Below, piece by piece: positions 33,760 to 59,300 of a stretch of 64,000 nt of DNA (the first letter of the stretch is position 1; every line of letters starts with the position of its first letter). The notes under the pieces are model-generated. The model made no database searches, was not told the DNA's origin, and saw only the letters and a list, made by a program, of their open reading frames with translations. The stretch is from Tieghemiomyces parasiticus (lineage: Eukaryota > Kickxellomycota > Dimargaritomycetes > Dimargaritales > Dimargaritaceae): contig JANBPT010000002.1 of NCBI GenBank assembly GCA_027575765.1, positions 62,001-126,000 on the forward strand, given 5' to 3'. The position numbers and the translations under genes are program-made.

Positions 33760-36700
33760 TTAGCCACGGCCGCTACGGTTGAGGATACCGCCAACTTCCA
33801 CGTCCAGATCAGGGAGAGGCTTACGCTGAGCATGCCGGTGCGGGGTAGTAGGTACCTCAGCACTTCCACCTGTACCAGTCGAAGGCTCGTTAGTAGCACA
33901 ACAATCAGTATCCCCAAGGCCCTCCCCCTCCTCGCCATCCTCAATCAGCTCCACCTGGTCGTGCTCGCGGTCGATCGGCGCAGGGGGCGGGAGGAACCCG
34001 GTCTTGACAAGGTAAGCCAAGTACAGTCCGATCACCTCCTGCATTGATGCGCAAGGGACGCCCCCGGCGGCACAGAGAGTGGCCGTATGGCTCCGGTCGA
34101 GGGCCGGGGACCGGGTGGATGTGGGAAGATCGTCCAGAACGAAATGCAACAGTGGGTACAACGCATTATCGGCGGACTTGAGGGTGACATCCATGAGGTG
34201 GTTTCGCCACGGAATGTAGGCTACAGGGTCAACATTGAACCCGTAGATCCGGAGCTGGTCAAAGAAGTCATTGTAGCGGAACCGTGTGGGATTGGCCACG
34301 TTGAACACGCCCAGGGCAAGGGCGTTAGGTTGGCTAGCAGCCTCAACCACCACGCGGGCCACGTGATCGACCGGACACATATTGACGGCATTGTTCATGA
34401 TGGGAACCTCGCCTAGTTGCACACAGCCCTTGACCAGGCGCCACAGGAAATCGTCCGTGTTGGTCACACCCGTACGGGTGGCACCCACCACGTAGCCCGG
34501 GCGGACAACGGTACACGGGTACCCACGCGCACGCGCCTCGAAGAGCAGTTTTTCGGAGACCCACTTACTCTGGCCGTAGCCGCTGTGGAGGCCTGTACGG
34601 CTGCCTTCCAGGTCATCAGACTCGAGGACCGCGGTGATAGCCGACGACGGGTCGGCGTTGCCGCCGGGGTGCGGGTCGCCCCCCGAAGTCTGTGCCGTCG
34701 CCGTCTTAAACTCGCCCAACTGGGTAGTGTAATAGTCGGTATCGAGGACCGACGTGGACGAAACAAAGTGAAGGGGCTTCACATGGTCCGTGACGGCCAG
34801 CTCGAGGGCAGCCAAGGTACCCAGGACATTGGGGGCGCGTAGTTTGGCGTACGGGTAGACCCAATGGACGAGGGCGCCATTATGAATAATCACATCGACG
34901 GCGCTAGCCAAGGCGGTCCACTCGTGGTCGACGATCCCCAGGTGAGGCTGGGCAAGGTCACCGCGCACGGCGCGGACGCGGGCGGACCCGTAGCCGACCA
35001 GGTGTTCGGCAACGGTGGCGGGCATATCCCAATCGGACTGCCACACCAGATGATCGCGGGCACTCTGACGGACCCGCTCGTAGGCGTGCTCGTCCGACTG
35101 ACCACGCGTCAGGCAGTATACCGTGGCCGTGGGGAATTTGACCAGGAGTTCGGCAAGGATGAAGGCGCCCAGGAATCCCGTGGCTCCGGTGAGGAAGAAG
35201 GTCGGGGCCTGACCCGATGCGACTCGGGCCGGGAACTCGAACGCGCCGCCGTCGTTGGTAGAGGAGGCAATGTCGGACGCCGCGGTGAAGGCCAAGGCCG
35301 GGGGCAGCTGGGCCATTAGGGCAGTCAGGTCGGAAGCGTAGCCTGCGTCACCGGTCGGGTCGTCCTCGCTGTCAGTCTTATGCGGGTCCGCGGTAGACGA
35401 CTCGCCCGTCGCCCCGGTATCCTTGGCCACCGCGGTGGCGATGTTGAGATCGACCTGGGTGATGCGATCCACCTCAGCGGCCATCCCGGCGATGGTGGGC
35501 TGTTTGAATACCAGACCTAGGGGAACGTCCACACAGAACGTTTTGCGCACCTGGAAGATCATCCGGGTGGCCAGAATGGAGTGGCCGCCCAAGTCAAAGA
35601 AGTTGGCGTCGCGTGGGATGACGCCGCCGGGCTGGTCGAGCACTTCACTCCAGATGGTGTTGAGGGTCCGTTCAGTCGCAGAGTAGGCGGCCAGGGCGGC
35701 AGTGGTCGTGGTGGAGTCACCCGCGGCCCCGGCAGAACCGCGCCGAGCCGTGGCCGATCGATCGGCGTAGAGGGCCGTGTCGGGGAAGGGCAAGGCGGCC
35801 TTGTCGACCTTACCGTTGGGAGTGAGCGGGAGTCGATTCAGGGGGACGAAAACGCTGGGTATGCTGTAGCTGGGCAGCTTATGTTTGAGGTAGGCGCGGA
35901 TATCAGCAATCAGACGAGCGTAGTTGTCATCGTCCTCTTCCTCCTCTACGGCGGCGGCGGCCGGATCGGCACTTCCTTGGGCAAAAGCTTCGACGGGCCC
36001 GGGAACAAAGTACGAGACGAGGGTCTTCTCCTCATTCTTGTCACGTCGGACCAGGGTGACGTTGGCGCGGATGCGTGGGAACTGCGAGAGGTGGTTGTCA
36101 ATCTCGCCCAGTTCGATACGGAACCCGCGGATCTTGACCTGGTCGTCAAGACGGCCCACGCACTCGACAGAGCCGTCGGGGAGGTAGCGACCCAGATCGC
36201 CGGAGCGGTACATACGGTCACGATCGCCTCGGTAGAAAGGCCAGGGTACTTCGTTAACAGCCGGGTCCAGGTATGGCTGGGCCTGGAGGTCCACGTTACG
36301 GAGGGCCGGGTCGAACCAGTTGGGCACGAACTTGGTGCTTGTCACGTCGTCAAGGCGGAGATAGCCTTCGGAGAGGCCTCCACTACGGACGTAAATCTCA
36401 CCAATCTCGCCCACACCACACATACCGGGAGGCGGAGCGGACCCGTCAGCCGCGGTGGCGTGGAACCGGTTGACCACCAGGAGCTGCACGGACCGCATGC
36501 CCCAGCCGGCGGGGATCACGTCCTTGACGGAGGACAGGAAGGACGGCTGCTGGGCGCGGGACGGGATTGCAAAGTAAGAGACGGCGCGCTGGGTCTCGGT
36601 CGTACCGAACATGTTGATGACGGTTACGTTCTCGGCCAAGTGCTGGAGGCGGTGGCAGCTGCGCTTAGTGAGCAGGTCGCCGACGAAGAAGGCGTTGCGC

Positions 36701-38526
36701 AAGCTGGGAATGGCGGCCGTGGCGTTGGTGGACAGGAGCTGACCCATGGCCGGGGTGAGGTGAGTCACCGTCACGGCGTGGTCGGCCATCCACGAGGCCA
36801 GCTGGCCGGGAATGCCAATATCCTCGCTGGTGGGGATGTGCAGCTCGGCACCAAGGTAGAACGGGGTGAACACGTCGCGCTGGATGGGGTCGTGGGCAAT
36901 CCCAGACAGCATGGTGAACCGGTCCTCGGGGCCTAGCCCGAACCGTTCGGCCATCCAGGGGTAAAAGTGGGTCAAGGAATAGTGCCGACCACGGACACCC
37001 TTGGGGATGCCAGTACTACCACTAGTGAAGGACAAGGTGCCAATACTGTCAGGGCCGACCGGGACGGGAACTTGAATGCCCTCGGACAGGAGCATCGCGT
37101 CCGACAGGTCGCGGTGCGGGTCTAGCACGTCATGGCCCACAGAGATTGTGCCGCCCAGCAAGCGGCCATTGGTGAGCAATTCCAGAGCTGGCACCTCCGT
37201 TACAATTTCGAGCTCCTCGGTCACATAGGTGCGAACGGTGTCGGCCAGCGTCCCTGCGTGGCGCAGGACGACCAAACCACGGGGCTGGGCCACCGAGAGA
37301 TAGACTTGCTGACGTTCGGGTGGGTAGGCCGGGTCGATGACGCTGTAGGTGGCCCCGGCCATGAGGACGCCGAGGATGGCCACGGCCAGGTCGACGCCGC
37401 GGTATGCGTAGATGACCACGACGTCCTCGCGCTGGATGCCAGTCTTGAGCAAGTGAACGGCTAGCAATCGGGCGGCGGCGTAGGTCTTACCGAAAGTGAA
37501 CGTACGTTGCACCGACGTCATCGCGAGGTGGCTACCCGGGGCGGTCTGCAGGACGTTCTCTACGATGCAGCGGCGATCCGGGAAGTCGCGGGCGTTGCGG
37601 GCGAACCGTTCGGTGATGGCACCGGGCCACTCGGCCCAGTGCAAGTTGGCGTGCGGGTCCGGGATAACGGCACGACAGCGCGGGGTGACCAGGTCAATGG
37701 CACCAACGGCGGCATCCTGCGGGGCCGGGAGGGCAGGGTTGGTGCGGTGGGCCTCCAGGGCCTGGGCGACGCGGGCGCTGGCAACCAGCACGGCAATGAG
37801 CTGGTCGCAGATGTGGTGGATGCGGGCCGGCGAGAAGAGGACCTGATTGTACGACAGGGTGATCTGCACCGACGGGAGGAGGCGGCGCAGCGAGGCAGTG
37901 GAGCGCTGGGTAATGAACACGGTGAGATCGGTGTTGGACGACACGGTCTGGTCAAGGGTGGCAGCTGTCGTATCGGTCTGGTTGAAGAAACGGGCACGGA
38001 ACAGAGAGGGCGCCTGGCTGGTTTCGCTGGCGGTAGTGAGGACACCCAGGAGAGCTGCAAAGGGGACTTCGTCGGCCACGGCCTCGCGTTCGACGCGCTG
38101 AACATTGGCAATTACATCTAAAAAGGTATCCTCGGGGCGGACGCCCAAACGGAGGACCAGGGGGTTGCCCGACGGGGACGAGCTGCCTACAACCACATCC
38201 TCCTCACTGGTGTAGCGGTTCATAAGTACAGCGAAGGCCGCCAGGAGAATGGTGAACGGGGAGGCGGGTTCGTCTGCCTCCGTCGAAGTGGAGGTGCCGT
38301 TGCCGGCCGACTGGTTCAATGACAGCTGAAGGAGGGCCAGGCAGGCCGGGTCGGGGAGGTCGAAGGTGTGGGAGGCCTCAACCACCTTGAGCGGAACGGG
38401 CCGTGGGTAGTCCGTGGGCAGCACCAGTTCCGTGGGGCGTTGCAGCCGTTGCTCCCAGCGCGCCAGCCGGTCGGTGAAATCGGCGGCCGTGCCCAAGGCG
38501 GCGTCCGTTGCGGCGGGGGCGGCCAT
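33760..38526 (-). CDS. LYS2: L-2-aminoadipate reductase (alpha-aminoadipate reductase)
   Basis: A 1588 aa intronless gene for the fungal lysine pathway enzyme that adenylates, thioesterifies and reduces alpha-aminoadipate to its semialdehyde with NADPH. Domains in order: a condensation-like N-terminus (RWEQRLQRPTELVLPTDYPR), an adenylation domain (FTSGSTGIPKGVRGRH; GIAHDPIQRDVFTPFYLGAE; YRSGDLGRYLPDGSVECVGR), a carrier domain with the phosphopantetheine Ser983 in DLGGHSILATRM, and a short-chain-dehydrogenase-type reductase domain (FLTGATGFLGAFIL; YGQSKWVSEKLLF with the Tyr-x3-Lys pair). It needs activation by a Lys5-type transferase. The protein is longer than most Lys2 (about 1400 aa), partly from loop insertions and an acidic, low-complexity C-terminal tail of about 85 residues. 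The start ATG 38526 gives the expected N-terminus. Confidence 0.97.
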   Translation of the reverse strand: MAAPAATDAALGTAADFTDRLARWEQRLQRPTELVLPTDYPRPVPLKVVEASHTFDLPDPACLALLQLSLNQSAGNGTSTSTEADEPASPFTILLAAFAVLMNRYTSEEDVVVGSSSPSGNPLVLRLGVRPEDTFLDVIANVQRVEREAVADEVPFAALLGVLTTASETSQAPSLFRARFFNQTDTTAATLDQTVSSNTDLTVFITQRSTASLRRLLPSVQITLSYNQVLFSPARIHHICDQLIAVLVASARVAQALEAHRTNPALPAPQDAAVGAIDLVTPRCRAVIPDPHANLHWAEWPGAITERFARNARDFPDRRCIVENVLQTAPGSHLAMTSVQRTFTFGKTYAAARLLAVHLLKTGIQREDVVVIYAYRGVDLAVAILGVLMAGATYSVIDPAYPPERQQVYLSVAQPRGLVVLRHAGTLADTVRTYVTEELEIVTEVPALELLTNGRLLGGTISVGHDVLDPHRDLSDAMLLSEGIQVPVPVGPDSIGTLSFTSGSTGIPKGVRGRHYSLTHFYPWMAERFGLGPEDRFTMLSGIAHDPIQRDVFTPFYLGAELHIPTSEDIGIPGQLASWMADHAVTVTHLTPAMGQLLSTNATAAIPSLRNAFFVGDLLTKRSCHRLQHLAENVTVINMFGTTETQRAVSYFAIPSRAQQPSFLSSVKDVIPAGWGMRSVQLLVVNRFHATAADGSAPPPGMCGVGEIGEIYVRSGGLSEGYLRLDDVTSTKFVPNWFDPALRNVDLQAQPYLDPAVNEVPWPFYRGDRDRMYRSGDLGRYLPDGSVECVGRLDDQVKIRGFRIELGEIDNHLSQFPRIRANVTLVRRDKNEEKTLVSYFVPGPVEAFAQGSADPAAAAVEEEEDDDNYARLIADIRAYLKHKLPSYSIPSVFVPLNRLPLTPNGKVDKAALPFPDTALYADRSATARRGSAGAAGDSTTTTAALAAYSATERTLNTIWSEVLDQPGGVIPRDANFFDLGGHSILATRMIFQVRKTFCVDVPLGLVFKQPTIAGMAAEVDRITQVDLNIATAVAKDTGATGESSTADPHKTDSEDDPTGDAGYASDLTALMAQLPPALAFTAASDIASSTNDGGAFEFPARVASGQAPTFFLTGATGFLGAFILAELLVKFPTATVYCLTRGQSDEHAYERVRQSARDHLVWQSDWDMPATVAEHLVGYGSARVRAVRGDLAQPHLGIVDHEWTALASAVDVIIHNGALVHWVYPYAKLRAPNVLGTLAALELAVTDHVKPLHFVSSTSVLDTDYYTTQLGEFKTATAQTSGGDPHPGGNADPSSAITAVLESDDLEGSRTGLHSGYGQSKWVSEKLLFEARARGYPCTVVRPGYVVGATRTGVTNTDDFLWRLVKGCVQLGEVPIMNNAVNMCPVDHVARVVVEAASQPNALALGVFNVANPTRFRYNDFFDQLRIYGFNVDPVAYIPWRNHLMDVTLKSADNALYPLLHFVLDDLPTSTRSPALDRSHTATLCAAGGVPCASMQEVIGLYLAYLVKTGFLPPPAPIDREHDQVELIEDGEEGEGLGDTDCCATNEPSTGTGGSAEVPTTPHRHAQRKPLPDLDVEVGGILNRSGRG

Positions 38527-40940
38527 GGTGGGGAGTGGGGGGAATGTGTGGTGGCGGAAACGGTGGGTGCAGCTTGTGGATGATTTAAAATAGAGAGGAG
38601 CGGCCGCGTAGAGGTGATCGATTCGCCTGGCAGGGGGGGGAATGAGGGTCGAGGCTGGTGACGAGTGAGACTCCTCGTCGGTGTCAGGTAGGCTACGGGA
38701 GTAAGCGGATCGGGAGAAGCCGTCTTGGTGGTGGTAGTCAAGCGAAGAGGAGCAAAGTGAGCCGAGGTGGCTGGCGGGGCTCTAGCTATATACGCCGGCG
38801 GTAGGCGACAGTCTCCAGCCTTTAGTTTTGCCAGCGTCATGAGTGCCCTGCCCTTGACGCCGTCAGCTTATTTGTTGACAGGCTGAAGGGCGAATTGCAT
38901 GGTGTGATTGAACGCCACGCCGAAGCTCTCTTTGCCCCCCCCCCTCTCGATTACTTCACCCCGCCCGGCTAGGCTCTGAGTCACTACGGTCCCCCCTGCC
39001 CGCACCTCTTTTTGATAACGCACGATGACTCTACAAGCCCCGCCGCCTCAAAGCCCTTCGCTCTCACTGGCTCGTTCTCATTAACCCAGCCCCCTCCCTA
39101 TCTCTTTTATGTAGGTCAAAATGACTGGCCAATCATGCTAGCGACACTCGCTTTCCCTACGAGTCTGACGGCAATCGCTCGTTTTAACACCATGGTCATC
39201 GACACCTACTTTAGATGCCTTTAATTAGCCGTCAGTGTCAACTCGGCCTTGACTCATTAGGACCTTACAGGCGGTCTGACCCTATCTCGCCCAAGGGGGT
39301 TTTCACGCGCGCAGCGATTAGCAAGGACCTTACCAGTGACGCCAATTCCACAAACAGTGAGGAGACCGCCAGAACAGACGTAATCTGGTCCGCGGGGTCC
39401 CTCTAGAGTGTACGACACATTCAGGCCCTTCTAGCCACTTGTGCTCAAGCCTAATTGTACCAAACCGTTGTGCCAAAAAGTCTCTCGCCGCGGTTCGCTA
39501 CCACTTGCAACATAAAGCTTCGATGTAGGATCAGGCTGGGTAACATCCGCTTGCCCGTGTTTCACAGGGACATCTCTATCGCCTTACAACAATACCATTT
39601 GAGGGCCAGTGTAGAGCAGAAACGTCGATAGGAGGCTATTCTTGTATAGCGCCACGACAATATTATGGCTCACCGATAGTGAATGCTTACATCTGTATAA
39701 TTCACGTCCAATAAACCAGCTCACCCGTTGGGGACGGAACAACCAAACGGCTGACAAGGGGTGACTTTGTAATTCCCCAATGTAGAACCGCAGACCCCGT
39801 CTCCTCCCCTCTCCTTAAAAAGCGGGCGGTGGGCCTGTGGTGGCGGTGTTTAGAGGTGGAGTAGGGCCTGCTAACCCAGGAAACAGGCCCACGTCCGGTG
39901 CGACAAAAAGAAAGGCTAGGGCAGCCTGTCAGCGGCGTGAGGGAATGTCGTCCGGTGCCGGGAAGTATCAGAGGGGATATTCGATGTGCGTCCAGCTGTA
40001 TTCTACACGTGTATTCGAAACTATGCCTGCATAGCCGTCGCCAACTCCACATCTACGGTGAATTTCCACAGCTGCGTTATTAAACTGTTCGTTTGCCTAT
40101 CGAACATCCAATTGTGTAAAACTTAAATTGCAAATGCTATGTTAACCATATTGCTCGCTCCGCTTTTGTTGGTCTTTAATCGTCTGGCAGTGCTAGCCGA
40201 TGTCGGATGCAAGGAAGGGTGTAGTAGACTTGTTGCGACCGATCAGTGACCGAGGAATGAAAGGACTAGCAGGCCGTCCCGGCTTCTGCACCGCCCCTGT
40301 CGCTCATGCTTTGACACTCGCTAACCACCGGCTCGTCGTCAAGTGCGAAAGATTCGACGTAGAGGCACTAGAGAAGCCGATCTCTCTCGCTAGCCAGCGG
40401 AGGCGCCGAGCTAGCCAATTGGTAAATATACCCTCTGGCCGGACGGTCATGGTGCGTACGCCAGTGTTCCATCTCGGCGCGGGCGGCAGAAGGGTTACGT
40501 ATATAAAACGCCTGAATGGTACAAATCCAAAGCCTATGTTGCACTTAAAACTGCACCCTGCGCGCCAGTGCATCCCTCCCCTCTTTCCGCCCATTCGACA
40601 TAGCTGCGGTCTCACCGTTGTCTCGCACACCCCTACTCACTTGGTCCAAACTTAGCCCTATCCTCGAGGATTTTCACGTCGATTATCCACCTGCTCAGCT
40701 TCCGTCTCTGGCTCTCCTAGCACTTATCCAGCCATCTTCCGAAGCCAGCACAGCGGGCCTTAACCACGACCCTAGTTCACCGATTGGCACGTCCCAACTC
40801 TCTTGACCTCCGTTTGGCTCATCCCTCGCTACCTTTTGTACAACTACCTCCGCCTGTTGGTACTCCACACTCTGCCACTTCCGTACGTTCCACATCTCCA
40901 CCCGGCCCGGACTCACTGCGCATCACCTTGCACCTTTGCT
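38527..40940. other. Intergenic between divergent LYS2 and PDI-like genes
   Basis: About 2.4 kb with no convincing gene. It contains both promoters. An open frame at 40200-40655 was rejected. A TATATAAA at 40500 is the best core promoter candidate for the PDI-like gene. Confidence 0.4.
40500..40507 (+). promoter_or_regulatory. Candidate TATA box, PDI-like gene
   Basis: TATATAAA, 434 bp before the start codon, so a long leader or leader intron would be needed. Weak evidence. Confidence 0.3.
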
Positions 40941-47813: not shown

Positions 47814-48373
47814 GAGAGGTTGAGGCGGTAGTTTAGGTGGTCAAGCGGCAATGGGCAATTGGTAGGAGAGGGGAATTCAAAGCCAACAATCAGAACGGTA
47901 AGTATACAGAGCTAGTACACCGGTTGGTCTCCCCACCATCACGTGTAGTGTTTGTGGAGCCCTTACCACTCCACTCTCGCAGGCACCCCACAATAAGTTG
48001 ACCGGTTGTGGAAGCGGTGAGACGGGTTACCACAGCTTGATGCGCTCCTTGCCCATTCACTCGCTCACTGCCCCACTGGGTGATTAGATCACCAGCGTCT
48101 CAAGTACCATCTCCTGCAATAGTCTGGCTTCCACCTTCTGGTCCGACCACCGCAAGTTCAAGGGGGATAGGAGAATGGAGTTCGGCGATACATTGGCACC
48201 ACGATATGGTCTGCAGGTTTTCAGATTGGTGGTTCTCTACACGAAATATGGTGTGGAATTGGGGCTGACAGACCTAGCATAAACTACAGTTCTGAGTGAT
48301 ATCCTTTATTGGGTCGTATTCGCCTCGAAGGCGTTCCAAGACGAAGAGACGACAGCAACTTCGGCCAGTAAGG
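47814..48373. other. Intergenic
   Basis: A 560 bp stretch: upstream region of the coiled-coil gene and downstream of the thioesterase gene. No gene seen. Confidence 0.35.
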
Positions 48374-49063
48374 TCATACCTTGGCTGGTAGGGCCCCTAA
48401 GGTCTGCGTGCTGTAGGCGACGACCCGGGCGGGGGTCCCCTGGCTCAGCTCGCCGCGTAAGAAAGTCATGTTGCGACCTACCTTGACCGCCTGAATGTCG
48501 ATGGTATAGAGCTCGTGGAGGTTACCCGCCGACACGCAATGGACGGTGAAGTCCGAGGTTGTCGGTAAGGCCTGCTCGGAACCACTAATGTTGGATGGAC
48601 TGGGACCTAAAGGTGGGTAATAAGGCACGTAGGTTATAATCGTTTGAACAGTCAGATAGCAGAGGTTAATGGCCGCTAGTGACGATTGCCATGGTGGACA
48701 CTTGACTAGAAACGGGGTGGGCCGTCTGGCCCGACTGTTACGTGGACGACTACGACTGTTGAGCTGCTGCAAGTCGAAAGCCCCCGATCCTCACTACTTC
48801 ACTCAAAGTTCGGCCATCTTACCTTGTAACCGATAGTACATACGCCCAGCGTAGCTGAGTAGGGTCGCGCTGCACCCGCCATGGAGGTTGGCCGACATGT
48901 TGGTCTCCTCCTGGCTCGGCATGAAGGTGAATGTGCCGCCCGACTTGTCGGTCGTCACAGGCGAGATACGCCGAAGAACACTGTCGGCATAGTGGGTGGT
49001 GGCGCCCCTGGTCATTTCTGTGGTTGTGACTGGGGCGGTCAGTAACGAAAGGTGGGCAGGCAT
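48374..49063 (-). CDS. THEM2/ACOT13-like hotdog-fold acyl-CoA thioesterase homologue
   Basis: Two exons, 48823..49063 and 48374..48705, 190 aa. Hotdog thioesterases hydrolyse acyl-CoA. The signature is NMSANLHGGCSATLLS, equivalent to N..GTLHGG...TLVD of THEM2, so Asn55 and His61 are kept but the acidic residue expected at position 70 is Ser. The second exon gives AAINLCYLTVQTIITYVPYY and the strand region TIDIQAVKVGRNMTFLRGEL, which fits the SVDMNITYM..AKIGE..A.VLK core pattern. An insertion of about 20 residues (PLGPSPSNISGSEQALPTTS) separates them. The start at 49063 is the first ATG; a start at MTRG (49015) is also possible. A further 3' exon cannot be excluded, as GTATG overlaps the stop. 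Confidence 0.6.
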
Positions 49064-49564
49064 TGGGGGGGGGTTCCAAACGAGACGGCCCAAGGCTCAC
49101 CGGGGGGGAATGAAGACTCGCTGAGTATGCTGGTCAAAGTAAAATACGGGTGAGAATAAGGTACAAGTGGCGTAGCCGGCTGTTCGGGTTCAAAGGTGGA
49201 AAGCGCGGCTCGAGGCTCCTGTAGAGGCTACTGAGGGGGGCTAAGTAAGTCAACGGTAGTAGTCTTGGGTCCCCCCCCCAGGTGGCTGGGGGCAGTGCCC
49301 CGTTTTCCATTCGCACCCTCTTCCGCATCACTGGCACGTGAGCTGCGTAAAACCTGCAGCGTCAACTGCCGACGAGAACTACAGGCGGCAGAGGGGTAAG
49401 CAATCATCCAATTATCGCCCTACGGCTAGCGGCAGCGTGGTGAGTCGGGCTTGGTTAGCTGGTCGCTATAAAGTTGGTTTTAAATAGACAAAAAGGTCGA
49501 GCCCCAGGGACTCCGTAATAAGACAGCCTTCTAAAATAAACACCCGGCAATGTGGACAAGTCAA
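49064..49564. other. Intergenic
   Basis: A 501 bp stretch upstream of the thioesterase and downstream of the DUF202 gene. An upstream exon of the thioesterase (around 49110-49160, GTGAGC donor) is possible but unproven. Confidence 0.35.
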
Positions 49565-49921
49565 CTACCTCCCCACAACTAGCCCACCGTACACGACGGC
49601 TAGAGCGCCCAGAGTGACCACGTAGAATAGTACATGGTGATTGTGCTGGCTCTGTGACGTCCAATAGCCGCGCAGTAGGGTCAGGTAGGCCAGGCCGGTG
49701 AGAATGAAGGTGAGGAAGGCCACCCCGAACCATGTGTAGCTGAGGGCCCGGCCGGTAGGCACGTCCAGGAACTTGGACGAGTTGAGGTACAGGGCCGCCC
49801 CGAGCACCGCAGCAGTTAGGGACAAACGAAAAAAACTGAGGAATGTGCGTTCGTAGGATAAGTGGTCGCGGGCGACGGAGAGCTGGTGCGGCAGGGCGCG
49901 GTGGTGCGGCACGGGGGCCAT
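49565..49921 (-). CDS. DUF202 (YidH-type) small membrane protein
   Basis: A 118 aa intronless gene. DUF202 proteins are small three-helix membrane proteins; in fungi the same fold occurs in Vtc1 of the vacuolar polyphosphate polymerase complex. The N-terminal signature is VARDHLSYERTFLSFFRLSL, matching the consensus DxLAxERTxLAWxRTxL. Three hydrophobic helices follow (SLTAAVLGAALYL; YTWFGVAFLTFILTGLAYLT; VLFYVVTLGALAVVYGGLVV). There is no SPX domain, so this is a stand-alone DUF202 protein of unknown role. Confidence 0.8.
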   Translation of the reverse strand: MAPVPHHRALPHQLSVARDHLSYERTFLSFFRLSLTAAVLGAALYLNSSKFLDVPTGRALSYTWFGVAFLTFILTGLAYLTLLRGYWTSQSQHNHHVLFYVVTLGALAVVYGGLVVGR

Positions 49922-50474
49922 GGTGAGAGGGGCGCTTGACTACCGTGAAATGAGTCGAGCTGCGAGATGGCAAATACGAATGGGTTAAAGGTGACAGCAT
50001 GGGTAAAATGAGAAAGGAAAAGTGCTCGCAGTAGGAGGCGGGTGGGGGCGGGCTGGTATTGCCTCCCCCCTCCACTTGTGACTTGCAGCTTGTCACTGTG
50101 CAATTGTGGTTCGTTGCTACCAGCTGGGCTGTCACAATCAGCTGGTGGTTCAGTGTATAAGAGTGTAGACGAGATGTATTGAAAATAGGGATTATCCAGC
50201 TGACATCGAGAGGTAGAAACACTGCTTATGCTTGGAAATCGCCATTCTCCTTCCATCAAATACGCCAACTGACTAGAGGAATATCAGCAGACCGACAGCA
50301 ATCAGGAGCAGTGTTTGGACGGATAGACGGGTGAGGAAGCTCGGCAGAAATGGTTCAAACAACATGAAGCTAATTACCACAAATGAAAAAGCAACAATGA
50401 GAGGAGTAGACTAATCGAGAATCATTCCTAATACATAATATATATTATTTTTACTAAGATTTTTATTGTGAGCT
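49922..50474. other. Intergenic before tRNA-Asp
   Basis: A 553 bp stretch that becomes AT-rich toward the tRNA. The left end holds the DUF202 promoter. No gene seen. Confidence 0.4.
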
Positions 50475-50546
50475 TCTTCGGTAGTATAGTGGTAAGTATC
50501 CCTGCCTGTCACGCAGGAGACCGGGGTTCAATTCCCCGCCGGAGAG
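50475..50546 (+). tRNA. tRNA-Asp (GTC)
   Basis: A 72 nt cloverleaf. The acceptor stem TCTTCGG pairs with CCGGAGA (one G-T), with discriminator G. The D arm contains the A box (TAGTATAGTGGTAAGTA). The anticodon stem CCTGC/GCAGG encloses CTGTCAC, anticodon GTC at 50508-50510. The T arm is CCGGGGTTCAATTCCCCG (B box). No intron. An oligo-T tract (50553 onward) gives the Pol III terminator. Confidence 0.97.
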
Positions 50547-50552
50547 TCCCAA

Positions 50553-50561
50553 TTTTTTTTT
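50553..50561 (+). terminator. RNA polymerase III oligo-T terminator of tRNA-Asp
   Basis: A run of T residues a few bases after the mature tRNA 3' end. Confidence 0.85.
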
Positions 50562-51820
50562 CATTGTTTTTGCATCCTCGATTGCCGATGCTGATCAACA
50601 TGATGACTAGAAATATTGAAACGAAGATGACACATCCACCTGGCTGTATGCAGCATTGCCAACGCTTTATATTTCACCCCAGGATCACAAAGGTAGCTGT
50701 CCCAGTTGGATCTCCTTAAAATGGTGAGGGGAAGGTAATATGGATTTTGATTTAGAGATATTAGAAGAGATGGAGCTTAGGTAGAAATGATGGGTTCAGC
50801 TAATTTCCACTTGTTCACTGTATCATACTTGCCTGTCCATTCCGCCAATGGCTCATTGTTTCAAATATCTCTGTACCCTTTCACTGAACTATCTCTCCTA
50901 TCCCACCCACTTATACCCTTTCAGCTACCCTGATGTGCTGATATTAGGCCCAAGTCTAATACAATAACCAAAAGGCTATTCTACTATCACAGAATTTATG
51001 GTTCTGTGATAGCAGACTTGGACTTTACCCTGAGACAATCTAATGTAGTGGTTCCCAATTACCACATCTTAACAGTGTCCCATGCCCTTTTATACCACCC
51101 ATTTTCTACCTTACACCTTGCAACCGTTTGGCCCTGTTGTTCCCCATTTGGTAAGCCCGTCGTCAATAGAGCTCTGCCTAACACAAATGTCTAGCTGCTA
51201 ATCACTAGACTGTCTCAGCAAGTGTAGATAAATAGACATGTGCTTATGCAACGGGCGCGGTGCGCCCCTTATAAGTTGGGTGGCGGTTGGCATGTTATGT
51301 GTGCTTGTGGGCAAAGGGAGAGTGCTCTTGGGGAGTCCTTGGTCTGGCGGGCTCCGGTGGAAGGCTGGTGGAGGAAGGGGCTCATAGGTGAGTCATGTTG
51401 GAGGGTGAGTTCATCCAGGGCGCCCGGGCGGGCGGCTTGGTGCAGGAGTAATGTGGCCCGTTCCGCAGTAGCTGCAGCTCTTGGCTTGGCTTTCCTTTCA
51501 GGTACAACAGTTGAAAATATGAAAAATAATAATGGAAAATTGTTTTTTGGGGGGTGGGCCTCAAACGAGCTCTGCGCCTACACCACATGTGCTCAAGGCA
51601 GAACTAACCCGTCGGATCTCAGGAGCACGCAGTATCACCAGTGACTGCGTTGATATCCCCCTTATATTCTCATTTGTTTGAGGGCGACGTTGTCGGCCTT
51701 TGGAACAAGAGCTGGTTCGGTGGGATTCCCATCCGCAGTCTTATGCTCTCAGTAAAAGAGTACGATAAATGGTATAGTGTATTAAAAATGAGCTGACAGA
51801 TATCGACTGCCTGACGTAGA
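50562..51820. other. AT-rich intergenic stretch beside the tRNA
   Basis: About 1.26 kb with no convincing gene. Base composition is clearly more AT-rich than elsewhere, and a nested inverted repeat lies at 50950-51021. It might be a remnant of an element inserted next to the tRNA, but no transposon protein was seen. Confidence 0.45.
50950..51021. repeat. Nested inverted repeat / hairpin
   Basis: An inner perfect 11 bp inverted repeat (CTATCACAGAA at 50984-50994, complement at 51002-51012, 7 nt loop) sits inside an outer perfect 8 bp pair (CCAAGTCT at 50950-50957 and AGACTTGG at 51014-51021). Confidence 0.7.
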
Positions 51821-54800
51821 CTATGCCATGCTGCCTAGGTTGTACTCCTCCGCTCGGGATTTTAACTGACAGTCTGCGTATAACTGCCACAGCGGACGGT
51901 CGGACGGCAGGTCGGACACGGCCCCTTCCCCATCCTTCGCAATTTCACAGTATGGCGGGGGCGACTCATTGTCGTTCTTCGACTCCCAAGCGTCACTAGA
52001 TTCTGGTGAATGGTCTTCCAAGGCCATAGGCGACGCCGGGCGCGGCGAGACTTGCCTCCCAGCAGGGGGACTCTCGATATCCAGGTAGGTCGAAGCGATC
52101 CGATTGAGCTGGTCGGCCGTCTCAGCACCTTGGTCCGCCAGGTCGAGGTTGACGTTGGCCGCCAGCCACATGTGGCGCAGGGCCTGAGCTACGGCGGGGG
52201 CGTCGGGGGCCATGCTGGGTAGGGTATCCGCGGCCAAGCTGGCCACCTCAAGACCGCAGCCCAAGCCGCGACTGCGGAACGAGGGCAGCCGGGCCTTCCT
52301 GATGGCGGAAAGATTGTAGAGCTGGGGGGGGGATGGGGTAGGGATACAGAGGTCGCAGGGTGAATGTTAGTGCTGCTTGAAATTCTGCAAAAAACAATAA
52401 GCACGGAAACTAAGGCTAATCGGCGTACTTAACCAGAGAGGGGTGTGTGAAAACTCCCAGGTCATTTACCTTCAGAACTAGAGCTAGGTTGTGGGCTAAC
52501 TCCCCCGCCTTGCTCAGTTGCGCAAAAGCTGTGGTGTTCGCGTTGTCATCGTCGTGGTGAGTAGCGTCTAGGTGGCCGTATGTGCGTAACCAACGGCAAT
52601 GTGCCTTATGTGCCCGGCGAAGGCCTGCGACGGCCTGTGGATAATTTCCATGTTCGAAGGCCTGGTAAAGTGCACTCGTCAGGAGACGCACGACGCCAAT
52701 ATAAGCCTCGCGACAGGGTCGGTACCGGGCTAGTTCATCTTTCGTCCATAGTCGTTCAAGCAGGTAATCGCTCTGCCGGGAGGGGTTGGCGTGGTAGGGT
52801 ATGTGGGGAAAACAATCATACAGTACGTGAGTTGCTTCGTCGGTTAGCAAGGGGCAGGGAGATGGGGAAGGGGGGGGGCGAATGGGCACAGCGAATACTG
52901 ATCGAATCAGTGTTGAAAAATAGGCCCCGGGGGACTCGGAGAAGCCACTTACTGGATCAGAAGACGGGCGGCCATCGGTCTCCCAAAACCGCACGACAGC
53001 GTCCTGAGCGCCCGCGCGATAGAGGAAGATATCGGCGCGCCGGACAATCATGGGGCTACAGTTGGTCAGCGATACGGCCTCGTTGATCAGGGTATTGATC
53101 TGGGCTAACTGAGCGTCGCGTTGGAGCTGGATGCTAGTGCGCCGCCGTTGGGCCGTCGAATCAGCCGAGCCACCTTGGGCGTCCTTAACCAGCTGGGCGT
53201 ACGGGACGGGCCCCGTCCGGCGGAACGTATCGCGCTCGTCGGCCTCTATTTGCTTCTCCTCTTCCGTGCGTCGCATCCAATCGCGAATCTCCTTGGTCAG
53301 CAAGGAGTTGTCTTCCTGAACGTGGCGGGCCAGGGTCGGCGGGATCACCGCCTTTATCTCCTCCCCCGCCCCTTCTTTGGTGGTACCGGTGGTCGGATTG
53401 GCTGACCTATCGGCCACGTATATGAGAGCACGAATGGCCGCAGTGGACTCAGTGTGCAAGATGTGCTCACCCACCTAGGGCGGTGACGATCATTTGGGTG
53501 AAAAGTGCAGTTGTGAGTTAGCACTTCAACCGGCGATTGATCTCTCTAGCCGACGGTAGGAACTCGGGAGTAATCCCAGCTGCGTTTGTGCATTCTACTT
53601 ACCTCCGTAACTTGAGTATCGCTAAATTTGCGCCACCGACGGGTCTCGTCGGCCGGATCGGCTCGTATGTATACCCATCCATGGGCATCCTCACCGGTTC
53701 CTCGCCAGCAGAGCATGGCATGCAGGTGGTATGGGTGTTGTCGCAACTCGGGTGTATCTTGCAACCGATCGATTTCGGCCTCCAATTCAGCCGCTTGTGT
53801 GCGGAGTCGTTCCACAGTGGCCTGGTAGATCTCGGCCTGGTGGCCAATAAAAGCCGCGGTGGACGCGAGCTCTTTGGCCCCCACGGTGAGATCGCCACAG
53901 GGTACATCACCGGCCGCGATCCGCTGCAGGGTCAGCTGAGTACCCTTCAGTAAAGTACCAGCGTTTGGCTGGTCGGCGGCCTCTTCCAAGGCAGCCAGGC
54001 GCTGGCGGACCACGTCGCGGGCCCGTTCCCGTGCCTTCAATGTGATCTCTAGCCGTTCCACTTGGGCACGGTTACGGGCAAGATAACGATCCGGCCACAG
54101 GGTGGGGTTGAGGCGCAGGCGGGCCCCACCACTGGGCCACCGCGAACCCGGAGCGACCATCCGGAAGCAAAGCACGTCGGCCAGTGTGGCGATCGCTAAA
54201 GTACCGTCCTGAGCGGACAGGGTCCGTTGCAACAGTTCAGGCAGTTGCACCTCGGGTTGGTCGGTGACGCTGCTCGGACACACAACGTTGACGTAGGCCA
54301 GCGGTAGTCCGGCGTTGCCGAGGGGGGCGTCCGGGGCCACATCGCTGTCTAGTAAATCGGCACGGGAATGGCTCGACGCTAGCGTGCTTAATAAGTGCGG
54401 TTGGCCTGGGGAGGGGTGTGCGGCCTGGCTGTACCGGGCTAGCTCGTTGAGATATCGTTCCACGGGCAGGTCGATACGGTGGACCGCGGTGGGGTGGACA
54501 CCTACGGTCAGTGCCCGGCGTACCAGGGAGGCGTCCACGTAGGCCCGCTTACTCGCCTCTAGATACCCAAACAGCCGGCCCAGCTCGCGGATGAAGGGCT
54601 CGTTGTACGGTTTAGGTGGCTCGTCGGCTAAGAGGTCTACGGTTGGTGGCGGGTCCCCGCCTTTTAACGACGGACCAGTTTCCAATGGGAGGCACGGGGT
54701 CCCGTGTCCTCGCCAGTAGTCCGCCGGGGAGGGCCAGCTGGCGCAATCCGGGATGGCCTGCCAGACCAGATTTCGCACGGCCGGCAGATGGAAGTAGGCC

Positions 54801-55850
54801 TGTACGAGGAGATTCCACACAGGTGCGTCAGGCTGAGGACGTAGCCCCACCAGTTGGCCCGTCCCACGGCGGCGATCTAGGGGGCTGAGGGGGTCCTCCC
54901 AGGCCAAAGGGATGACGGGATCCCCAGCGGTTACCACCGAGGTGGCAGTACTGGCCTCAATGGCGCGGGCAAGGTCGCGGTCCTCCTGATCGAGTGGAAT
55001 GGATAGGATACACAAGTGAGAAGGGCAATTAGCGGGTATGAGTACACTGGATGAGGCCGTGATGGAAGGGAGCTTAATCTGCTTCTCACCACACGACCAT
55101 TTGACCGAAAATAATAGTCTAATTCGACTTGAAAGAAAGTTCGGCGGCCAGGGCCACGCCGATGTAAAATACTCCCATAATACCTACCTGAGACTCCGGA
55201 ATGGATGCCAGTCGACTGGCCCCGCCGTGAGGAGTCGGGTCGTCGCTAATCTGAGTGAGTCGGTCGCAGAGTTGGTGGTGGTGGTCGGCATAATCATTGT
55301 ACGGATCCTGATGGTGAGTCTCTAAGGAGGCGTGGATGGCGCGGCGGAGTTGCTCATCCTCGTCATCCGGCCCGTGAGCACTATACAGCGGTGGGGACGT
55401 AGCCCCAAGCGGTGAGATGGCGATAGGGGCGTAGGCGTGTTTCGACTCTTTAATATGGATTGGTGAGTTCGCCTGCCCGCTACTGGCACCACCGCTGAGT
55501 GGCGGGAAGTCGGACGTGTATTGCTGGGACTCGGGGCCCGGCGCAGAAGGGGTTGACGTGGACCAGGCGCTGGTTGCCTCCGTAGAAGGCGAATTGGCTT
55601 GGATAGGTGGGGTGGGCGCACAGTCCCACATGCCGTCAGCGGCTTCCACCTCGTCACCGGTCGGGTCGGCCACGGGTGCCGCATCGGGTTCTTGACTGAA
55701 ACCGTCCGAGAAGATGAAGTTGGCCGCCTTGGAGACGTCCTGGTTAAAGCGGCGCAACGCTGCCCGGGCCTGGTCAATGTCAATGCCGAGCTCGAGCAAC
55801 TGGTGGAGTTGTGGGCTCAAGTCGCCCTCAGTGGGGGAATCGATGTCCAT
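51821..55850 (-). CDS. USP25/28-type ubiquitin-specific protease homologue without the catalytic cysteine (probable pseudo-deubiquitinase)
   Basis: Five exons, all joined in phase 0: 55188..55850, 53603..54985, 52953..53474, 52470..52772 and 51821..52321, 1123 aa (human USP25 and USP28 are about 1055-1080). Order: a UBA domain (LHQLLELGIDIDQARAALRR), a ubiquitin-interacting motif (EDEQLRRAIHASLE), a second (EDRDLARAIEAS, residues 222-233), the USP domain and a helical C-terminus. The Cys box reads VGLRPQPDAPVWNLLVQAYF where active USPs have VGLxNxGNTCWFNSxxQ, so Pro276 replaces Cys. The His box is kept (HLHAMLCWRGTGEDAHGWVY, His656). The third triad site is Ser676 in KFSD, where Asn or Asp is normal. 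It likely binds ubiquitin but cannot cleave it. Confidence 0.85.
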
Positions 55851-56376
55851 TACGGCGTTTGGCTATGCCAGTGGCTGAAGAGGGTGACGAAATGGTGGGA
55901 ACGGGCGGACTAAAGAGATGTGTGGCGTAAAAGCAAAAAAAAAGTGATAGGACCGAGAGGAGTAGGCCATTAGGGTTCCATAGGAATGTGGAGGCCGGTG
56001 GCATCGACACGAGATGGATACCAAGGTCGATTCGTCAAGGTTTCGGCTACCTGGTGGCACCCCGAAACCGACATGCCAGGTAGCGTATAGGGCGATAACC
56101 TGAGCCGAACCCGGGTGTCGCATGCTCCCATGTCGTACGTGGAGTGGGGCCACACTGCAGGTGTGCCGCCCGTGCCCCCTGCCATTCCACTTGTCAGTGT
56201 GGCTACTGCGGAGCATGGAGGCACTTACGTAGGTGTCTGCCCTCACAAGAACCCTGGAAACGTATGTGGGCCACGGCCGCTAGCGCACGGTGTATCCCCG
56301 AATTTATTATCATAAGTTCCGAAAGGGAAAGAACGGGCCAAGGTTGCCAGCCGTCATTAAGCATTTTAACACGCAG
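55851..56376. other. Intergenic between two minus-strand genes
   Basis: A 526 bp stretch with no gene seen. It holds the USP-like gene promoter and the VPS34 3' end. Confidence 0.4.
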
Positions 56377-59300
56377 TCACTTTTTCCAGTACTGGGCCCA
56401 ACGGTGTATAGTTTCAATAACCTGCGGGAAAAGTGCGCTGACCGACTCATTGATGAGGGTCTGGAAGTACTGGGTGGCCTCCTCCTCGGTCAAGTCGAGC
56501 CGGAACTTGGCTTGCACTTTGGCCACAGCCTGGTCAGGCTCCACGGCGATGTCCGGTACGTTGGCCTCCACCATCAACGCCAGTAGATTGAGAATTAGGT
56601 TGGCCGACTTGCGCAGCACGCTGAACGCTACGAAGCAGTACGCCTTGAACCGTTGGTACTGGACGCTGAACGCACCGCCCATCCCTTCGACCATCTCCTT
56701 ACACAGCTTCATGGGCGGCGGGAACGGTTTGGGGTCGCGGCCGAGGATGTACCCAAAGTCAATATGGAACAGCCGGCCGTCCTGGGTGAGTAGCAAATTG
56801 TCCAGGTGGCGGTCTCCTACGCCCAGCAGGTAGGTGATCACGCAGTATCCTGCGCAACTCTTTAAGTACGTATCCATCGCCGCCGCGTCCACCCCGTAGG
56901 GCGCAGCCGGCTGTGGGTCCGGGTTGGTGAGCCGCAAATAGGCAAGTAGACTGTCGTGGTGCTCGGCCAGCACGTCAGCGAGGGCCTTGGAGGGTACCAG
57001 TTGGACCAAGCCCTGGTCGGCCCCCGTGGCCAACACGCGGTAGGGCGTGAGCCTCAGGTCCAGCTTCTCTTTGCGCAGCAGCCGGTCCATTAGGGTAAAA
57101 ATCTGGATGACCAGCTGATCCTGTCGCAGGTCGTCTCCGGTTTTCACCATGACGCGGTACTCGCCGCCGTCGGCGCACCGGAAAGTGAGGGCCAGAGGTT
57201 GCATGCTACTTTTGAAAATGGTGGATGAGTTGGCGTCGATACCCACCACCTCCACCGAAGGGTCAAGTGGTAATGGTAGCGTGGGGAACGTGTGAAGGCC
57301 ATGCTTCGGGTCAGCCAAGTACGACTGTAGCTGCTCGATCTTCTGAGGTCGGGCCTCCTTAGAGGCCCGCAGTCGGACTGAGAGCCGGGCTAACTGGGCC
57401 ATTAGGGCGCGCTGACGATCCAGGATCTCACGCCGCGCTGCTCCATCCACCAGCCGGGCTGTGGCCGTGAGGTACCGCTCCGTGACTTGGGCGTAGGCCG
57501 GTCCCGCCCGTGCGTCCTCGCACTCCACCACCAAGTACCAGTAAAAGTAGTTGCCAAGCGTGGGGCTGCGCAGTGCCCGCGAGATGAGGAATTCGGCAAG
57601 GTTGGACGTTTCGGCTCCCGCGCGGGCCCGGCCGGCAGCGTGGGCCGCTTCGGGCAGAGCGGCCACCCCGCCTGCTGCCGCCCCGGCCGGGCCGATCCCT
57701 TCGAATTTGAGGGCCTGGACCAGCTGCAGCAGATAAAGCAGAAGCTCCTCGTCGTCGGCACGCTCCAGCCGGGTCACCGCGTAGGCGCGCACGTTGCGGT
57801 TGGTGAACGTCGGGCCCAGGAGTTCGAGGGCATCGTCCACGTCGATGGTGGCCCAGTGCAGCAACATGTCCACCGCCTGCTTACTCTCCACAAGGTCGGT
57901 CCAGGCGACGCACTTGAGGAATTTGGTGAGCGCTGTGCGGTCTCCCGACAAGTAATAGCGAAACTTCCAGAGGAGATCCTTCTCCTCGTTGGTCAGCTCG
58001 GTGGTGGGCGGGTAGCGGAGGATCACGTTGAGTTCGTCGCGAATCTTGGCGTTGGGCTTGAGTTCCCGATCCAAAGGTCCGTTGCGGTGGCTTCGCACCA
58101 GGCGGCGGTGCTTGGCCTCAGCCAGGTTCTCACGGTGCAGCTCCGGGTCGTGCACGAAGGCGATCTCGGGGAAAAGCGGGGTCACCAGATGCGGGTCGGT
58201 GGATTCCGCCTCACTGTAGATCAGCGGGAAGTCAAAAGTGGGTAGTTCAATGTACAGGAACGTACTGGTGGTGGATTGAGCCTCGGCCTGGTGCACCCGT
58301 TCGATCTCGCGGAAGGTCAGTTTGTCGAGCCAATCTAGGCGGGGTAGGTCGCCTGTTTCGTGTTTTTTGATAAGCTTCTCCAGGCGGTCCATTTCGGTCT
58401 TTGGGCCAGCCTTCCCTGGTGTGCGGGTGGGGCTGAGGGAATCCGCGGGCAGGTCGCTCCACAGCAACAGTTTCTGGCGGCTCTGGCGCAGTTTACTGTG
58501 ATCCAGGACGACGGTTGATAAGGCAGAGCCTCAGGCAACGGATGAGCTGGAGCGTTAGCGAGGTATAGACTGTGCTTACCAACGAGACGCCGGGTTAGCG
58601 CAGCGGTGAGCGGGACCGAATAACGCGGACCGGTCAGGCTGGAACTACTTACTGGTTACGAGTGAACAGAGAGAGGGTGCACCCGCCTACGATCTCAACT
58701 TCGCGCGGGGCCTTCATTACCCATACGTTGAAGAGGAGCTGGGCCGTGAGTGGTACATCTCGATACTTGATGGGGAGGGTGAGCCATTCGTTCCAACTGG
58801 ACAGTTCATAAGCAAAGCAGGGGAAAGGTGTGGGTCGGGGTTGGAAATGGGCAAATGGATCAGTAGCACGGTCAAGGCGGTTACCCAACGGTGCACCAAG
58901 TTCCGTCAAGTATGGACACTACTGCGGTGGCCAGAAAGCTAGACGCGGCAACTTACACATTAGTTTTGGAGGCACGGTAGGCGGTTTGGTACGGGATACA
59001 GAGCGGGTAACCGTCGGCGTAGAGCTCGACGGTCACAAAGGCTGAATTGGTCGGACTGGGCAGCAAAATTTCCGGTAGGGGCGCGGTTGCGACGGAGAGA
59101 ATAAAAGAGGTTGGCAGACTGACAGGGACGACCCGTGTAGAGGTGACTCCTCGGACAGGACGCAGCTAATAAAATACCATACAAGCCCGAGCCGATGGCG
59201 CTGCATTGCACCGTCGGAGTGACTTACTCTAACGCAGCTGGCTGATCACTGAGTCCCAGCTGCGCGATCTTCTCGTCCAGTTCCCGGGAGAGAGAATCTG

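Follow-up and report, generated by a model that had tools for sequence, protein, structure and literature searches.

Can a deubiquitinase of the USP25/28 type still cut ubiquitin chains when a proline stands in the place of its catalytic cysteine? The question is raised by a gene of Tieghemiomyces parasiticus, a fungus of the Dimargaritales, Kickxellomycotina, that lies in a stretch of 64,000 nucleotides (contig JANBPT010000002.1 of assembly GCA_027575765.1, positions 62,001 to 126,000), here called the window. The gene occupies positions 55850-51821 of the window on the minus strand. Its five phase-0 exons, with lengths all divisible by 3 and introns all GT..AG, encode 1123 amino acids. This model, proposed in an initial annotation made from the letters alone, agreed letter for letter with NCBI protein P0001 of the same species, which carries the name USP28. 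Judged by its sequence, the window protein is probably a USP25/28-type protein without deubiquitinase chemistry that selection may have preserved as an adaptor or scaffold for binding ubiquitin.

Active site and domain make-up

The USP domain of the window protein was most similar to that of USP25/28. Three programs (phmmer, MAFFT, hmmsearch) all aligned its segment GLRPQPDAPVW...FHLP without gaps to GLKNVGNTCWF...FHLP, with equal spacing to FHLP. A wrong exon or frame at this Cys box could be ruled out, as the box lies inside a single exon with exact spacing. Pro276 occupies the column of the catalytic Cys, just as the initial annotation had described, and Pro271 that of the Asn five positions earlier. 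We take this Asn to be the oxyanion Asn, presumably N218 of USP7. Further on, the window protein reads DLPVERY for QQDVSEF and AHG for GHY (AHGW for GHYW), and the SRFxFN loop is affected by a deletion. His656 aligned at the catalytic His and is thus retained, as had been claimed, together with Asp677 as the fourth residue. The third residue is Ser676, which the initial annotation had counted as a further loss. This part of the claim did not hold: Ser676 alone is no proof of inactivity, because USP16, USP30 and USP45 carry Ser at the third position and yet are catalytically competent (PMC10867860). The same source describes the role of the oxyanion-hole Asn in USP catalysis.

To what extent each block is kept was expressed as the share of conserved positions (those shared by 18 or more of 20 selected relatives), with the Ubp2 protein of the same genome for comparison; the Ubp2 block rows were aligned by hand without gaps. 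MAFFT had misplaced the Cys-box and ELR rows of Ubp2. The window protein kept 2/11 positions of the Cys core versus 7/11 in Ubp2, 1/7 versus 6/7 in the QQD block, 7/16 versus 10/16 in the His box, 1/7 versus 2/7 in the SRFxFN block, and 4/5 versus 5/5 around the third and fourth residues. The helix following the Cys (6/14 versus 4), the ELR..KYVDP block (8/13 versus 5) and the DRY block (4/5 versus 3) were better kept than in Ubp2. With active-site blocks poorer and structural blocks better preserved, the loss is therefore concentrated at the active site. What weighs against such a focused loss is that the two insertion blocks are poorly kept too, with 2/9 and 2/10 conserved positions.

The initial annotation had listed a UBA, two UIMs and a USP domain. 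Two UIM stretches indeed scored above the Pfam cut-off (31.7 bits; cut-off 21). The UBA remained under the Pfam cut-offs (17.0 versus 27 and 15.2 versus 22.4 bits), yet AlphaFold predicted three helices for amino acids (aa) 13-47, with block values of the predicted local distance difference test (pLDDT) of 80-92. The UCH match to the USP domain was partial, limited to residues 623-689. No RPT domain was matched in the Pfam scan, and the NCBIfam scan gave no matches. Predicted helices 524-558, 563-578 and 591-630 sit where USP25/28 have their helical insertion, and the EDN..W helix after the USP domain kept 6/10 conserved columns and coincides with a predicted helix 728-768. The Fingers-like stretch mostly had a pLDDT below 50 in both structure predictions, and exon 2 by itself gave a weak structural match.

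Animal USP25/USP28 share with the window protein the two UIMs, a putative UBA-like stretch, the W.DP..P..R.R linker ahead of the Cys box, the place of the predicted helical insertion and the EDN..W helix. In contrast to them, the window protein lacks the Cys, the Asn five positions before it, the QQD box and GHY; its insertion is shorter, and its identity to the 20 chosen relatives is 19-22%. Efficient cleavage of chains by USP25/28 depends on the UBA and UIMs of the N-terminal region, and these proteins dimerise through the insertion (PMC6509359, PMC6255862).

Second copy and selective constraint

Contig C809 carries a second copy of the gene; over the stretch compared, window positions of about 48003-57693, the two sequences are collinear and align in two blocks. 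Exons are 95.6-96.2% and introns 88-95% identical. The codons at 271 and 276 are the same in both copies, and so are the residues His656, Ser676 and Asp677. The second copy's coding part has neither gap nor stop and shows GT..AG at 4/4 introns. A sequencing or assembly error at Pro276 is hence unlikely, because a copy with exons differing by about 4% shares its codon. Synonymous divergence (dS) between the copies was 0.130, and 0.065-0.111 over matched segments of eight other USP pairs in the genome. All nine compared USP genes occur as near-identical pairs (dS 0.065-0.13); the assembly apparently combines two haplotypes or subgenomes, as a hybrid would also do.

Over the whole protein, the ratio of nonsynonymous to synonymous divergence (dN/dS) between the copies was 0.127 (95% interval 0.087-0.183). 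It was low in aa 1-221 (0.038), aa 639-705 (0.047) and aa 706-1123 (0.087), and aa 222-260 had 0 nonsynonymous and 5 synonymous changes. Higher values were found for aa 261-410 (0.286), aa 511-638 (0.256; 0.04-0.93) and, highest of all, the Fingers-like aa 411-510 (0.466; 0.17-1.37), where the interval extends above 1. Rounded nonsynonymous to synonymous counts were 26:28 in aa 261-638 versus 16:72 elsewhere (p 2.6e-4). Seven Cys-bearing USP pairs of the genome together gave 64:180, from which aa 261-638 differed (p 0.003), whereas the remainder of the protein was not higher (p 0.15). The segments for these comparisons were picked after the data had been looked at. Over matched UCH segments only, dN/dS of these seven pairs was 0 to 0.23, and that of a Sad1/USP39 pair 0.066. 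The window gene is under purifying selection, strongest in aa 1-260 and 639-705 and weak in aa 261-638, and it is not visibly in decay. Constraint appears to be tightest in the N-terminus, which binds ubiquitin by prediction, and in that half of the USP core which contains the His; the C-terminal region comes next, and the substrate-gripping half drifts. Since both copies, under purifying selection, have altered versions of the nucleophile, the oxyanion-type Asn and the tail-gripping boxes, the sequence lends good support to the earlier proposal of a pseudo-deubiquitinase.

Possible roles and relatives

Which role could such a protein have? The initial annotation had suggested that it binds or protects ubiquitin chains. 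This is plausible for the UBA-UIM-UIM part, the most constrained one, whereas it is doubtful that the USP domain would bind ubiquitin on its own. We propose that UBA-UIM-UIM would hold ubiquitin chains or ubiquitylated clients, while the USP core with its helical insertion would provide a structural platform that possibly dimerises and the C-terminal region would dock partners. Bound chains would then be read or shielded without cutting, and the intact Ubp2 may carry out the cutting. Taken as a whole, we may tentatively, and with slightly less than even confidence, speculate that the fungus's only USP25/28-type deubiquitinase has turned into a non-cutting ubiquitin reader: its chemistry and tail grip would have been dismantled together, UBA-UIM-UIM held under the tightest constraint and cutting left to Ubp2.

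One alternative, which we regard as unlikely, is a ubiquitin trap, in which the dead USP domain clamps ubiquitin like Cys-to-Ala deubiquitinase mutants and sequesters or shields chains. A Cys-to-Ala exchange does raise ubiquitin affinity in some deubiquitinases (PMC6172466). In the window protein, however, the grip on the ubiquitin tail is altered beyond the Cys, at Pro271 and in the DLPVERY and AHG boxes, and the clamp is less likely because these boxes changed along with it; moreover, the Fingers-like stretch combines low pLDDT with the highest dN/dS. It is likewise improbable that the USP domain was redirected to another ubiquitin-like protein or a protein partner, like USPL1 to SUMO. USPL1 kept the USP scaffold, with ubiquitin-binding residues replaced or deleted and blocking loops absent (PMC10919355), but it is an active SUMO protease. 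No feature of the window protein suggests SUMO, and PIHIK aligned where the family has VIDLT.

We also consider it quite unlikely that the gene is a relaxed relict on its way out, with the USP function lost and the remainder kept for now. The ratios of 0.26-0.47 over aa 261-638, with a Fingers-like interval that extends above 1, and the excess over the Cys-bearing USP pairs would fit such a relict. Against it stand the low ratio of the whole protein, an open frame and intact splice sites in both copies, and the unraised ratio outside aa 261-638. Most improbable is proteolysis via another cysteine, as reported for USP52, to which activity without the usual triad is ascribed (PMC10919355): although His656 and Asp677 are retained, aa 639-705 is strongly constrained and Cys302, 319, 457 and 647 are common to both copies within aa 261-705, the nearness of the first candidate, Cys647, to His656 follows from strand order (its strand lies beside the catalytic His strand) and not from coordinates, Cys494 and Cys584 vary between copies, and Pro271 and the tail-gripping boxes are altered.

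A genome search with the window protein (E up to 10; 9 candidates scored, so that counts are lower bounds) returned its own gene in both copies and, at C636/C516, a distant match, with no other USP25/28-type gene. The distant match is Ubp2, intact in two copies (L032 on C636, L033 on C516) with RPT, GNTCYLNS, QQDVSE and GHYW. Ubp2 is a related USP, with similarity to the window protein limited to aa 586-706 of the latter. It differs from the window protein by its RPT and by Cys, QQD and His boxes that are all intact; neither UIM nor UBA was matched in it at E 0.001. In both Ubp2 copies, a long stretch separates the Cys box from the QQD box. Among 20 other USP loci retrieved from 35 USP matches in the genome, 18 carry a Cys in this box, and the remaining two (L019/L020, on C677 and C612) are the Sad1/USP39 pair without catalytic Cys, a known pseudo-USP type.

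USP39/Sad1, which is not known to have UIMs, likewise has a USP fold devoid of the catalytic Cys and acts in a non-catalytic role, as the window protein probably does. It differs as a splicing factor with a zinc finger from a separate USP subfamily (PMC10919355). USP52/Pan2 and USP50 also lack catalytic residues but belong to other subfamilies, and USP52 has since been reported active; the three are discussed among the USPs that count, or once counted, as inactive (PMC10919355, PMC10867860).

Fungal relatives of the window protein were not seen in three protein searches of limited reach. The first (7991 candidates scored) and the second (513 candidates) returned only the window protein itself. 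The third gave 4373 matches among 4778 candidates, of which the best 120 comprised P0001 together with 119 proteins that were either from animals or unnamed; chosen sets of 20, 41 and 55 of these 119 were used for alignments. Literature searches, mostly outside subscription journals, yielded no USP25/28-type pseudoenzyme among the papers listed, and a review of deubiquitinases in pathogenic fungi contains USP25, USP28 and "inactive" 0 times. The name Tieghemiomyces parasiticus was not found in the 15 papers searched for it. The earlier statement that no such fungal pseudoenzyme is known hence agrees with this literature, which was covered in part. If our reading is true, the window protein would be the first USP25/28-type pseudoenzyme in the literature searched. 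A naturally dead member would separate the family's cutting roles from its ubiquitin-holding roles, and with the front end kept and the protease's gripping half apparently drifting, this division would be directly testable in one protein.

Gene layout and neighbouring features

Features of the USP25/28-type gene in the window
Feature	Position in window	Strand	Basis
Exon 1, aa 1-221: UBA-like stretch (13-47), UIM1 (163-179)	55188..55850	-	gene model, Pfam, AlphaFold
Exon 2, aa 222-682: UIM2, Cys box (degenerate), QQD box (changed), Fingers-like stretch, predicted helical insertion, His box, third and fourth residues	53603..54985	-	
Codon CCT, Pro271, at conserved Asn five before Cys	54836..54838	-	alignment
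Codon CCT, Pro276, at catalytic Cys	54821..54823	-	alignment
Codon CAT, His656, at catalytic His	53681..53683	-	alignment
Codons AGC GAT, Ser676 and Asp677, third and fourth residues	53618..53623	-	alignment
Exon 3, aa 683-856: last USP strand and USP25/28-like EDN..W helix	52953..53474	-	alignment, AlphaFold
Exon 4, aa 857-957: helical C-terminal region, low pLDDT	52470..52772	-	AlphaFold
Exon 5, aa 958-1123 and stop	51821..52321	-	gene model

The gene is adjoined by a PI3-kinase open reading frame on the minus strand (window 56380-58530), which we take to be Vps34-like. A long open reading frame at 33763-38781 matched Condensation, AMP-binding, PP-binding and NAD_binding_4, presumably the domain set of a Lys2-type aminoadipate reductase preceded by the Condensation match. 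A tRNA-Asp (GTC) lies on the plus strand at 50474-50549.
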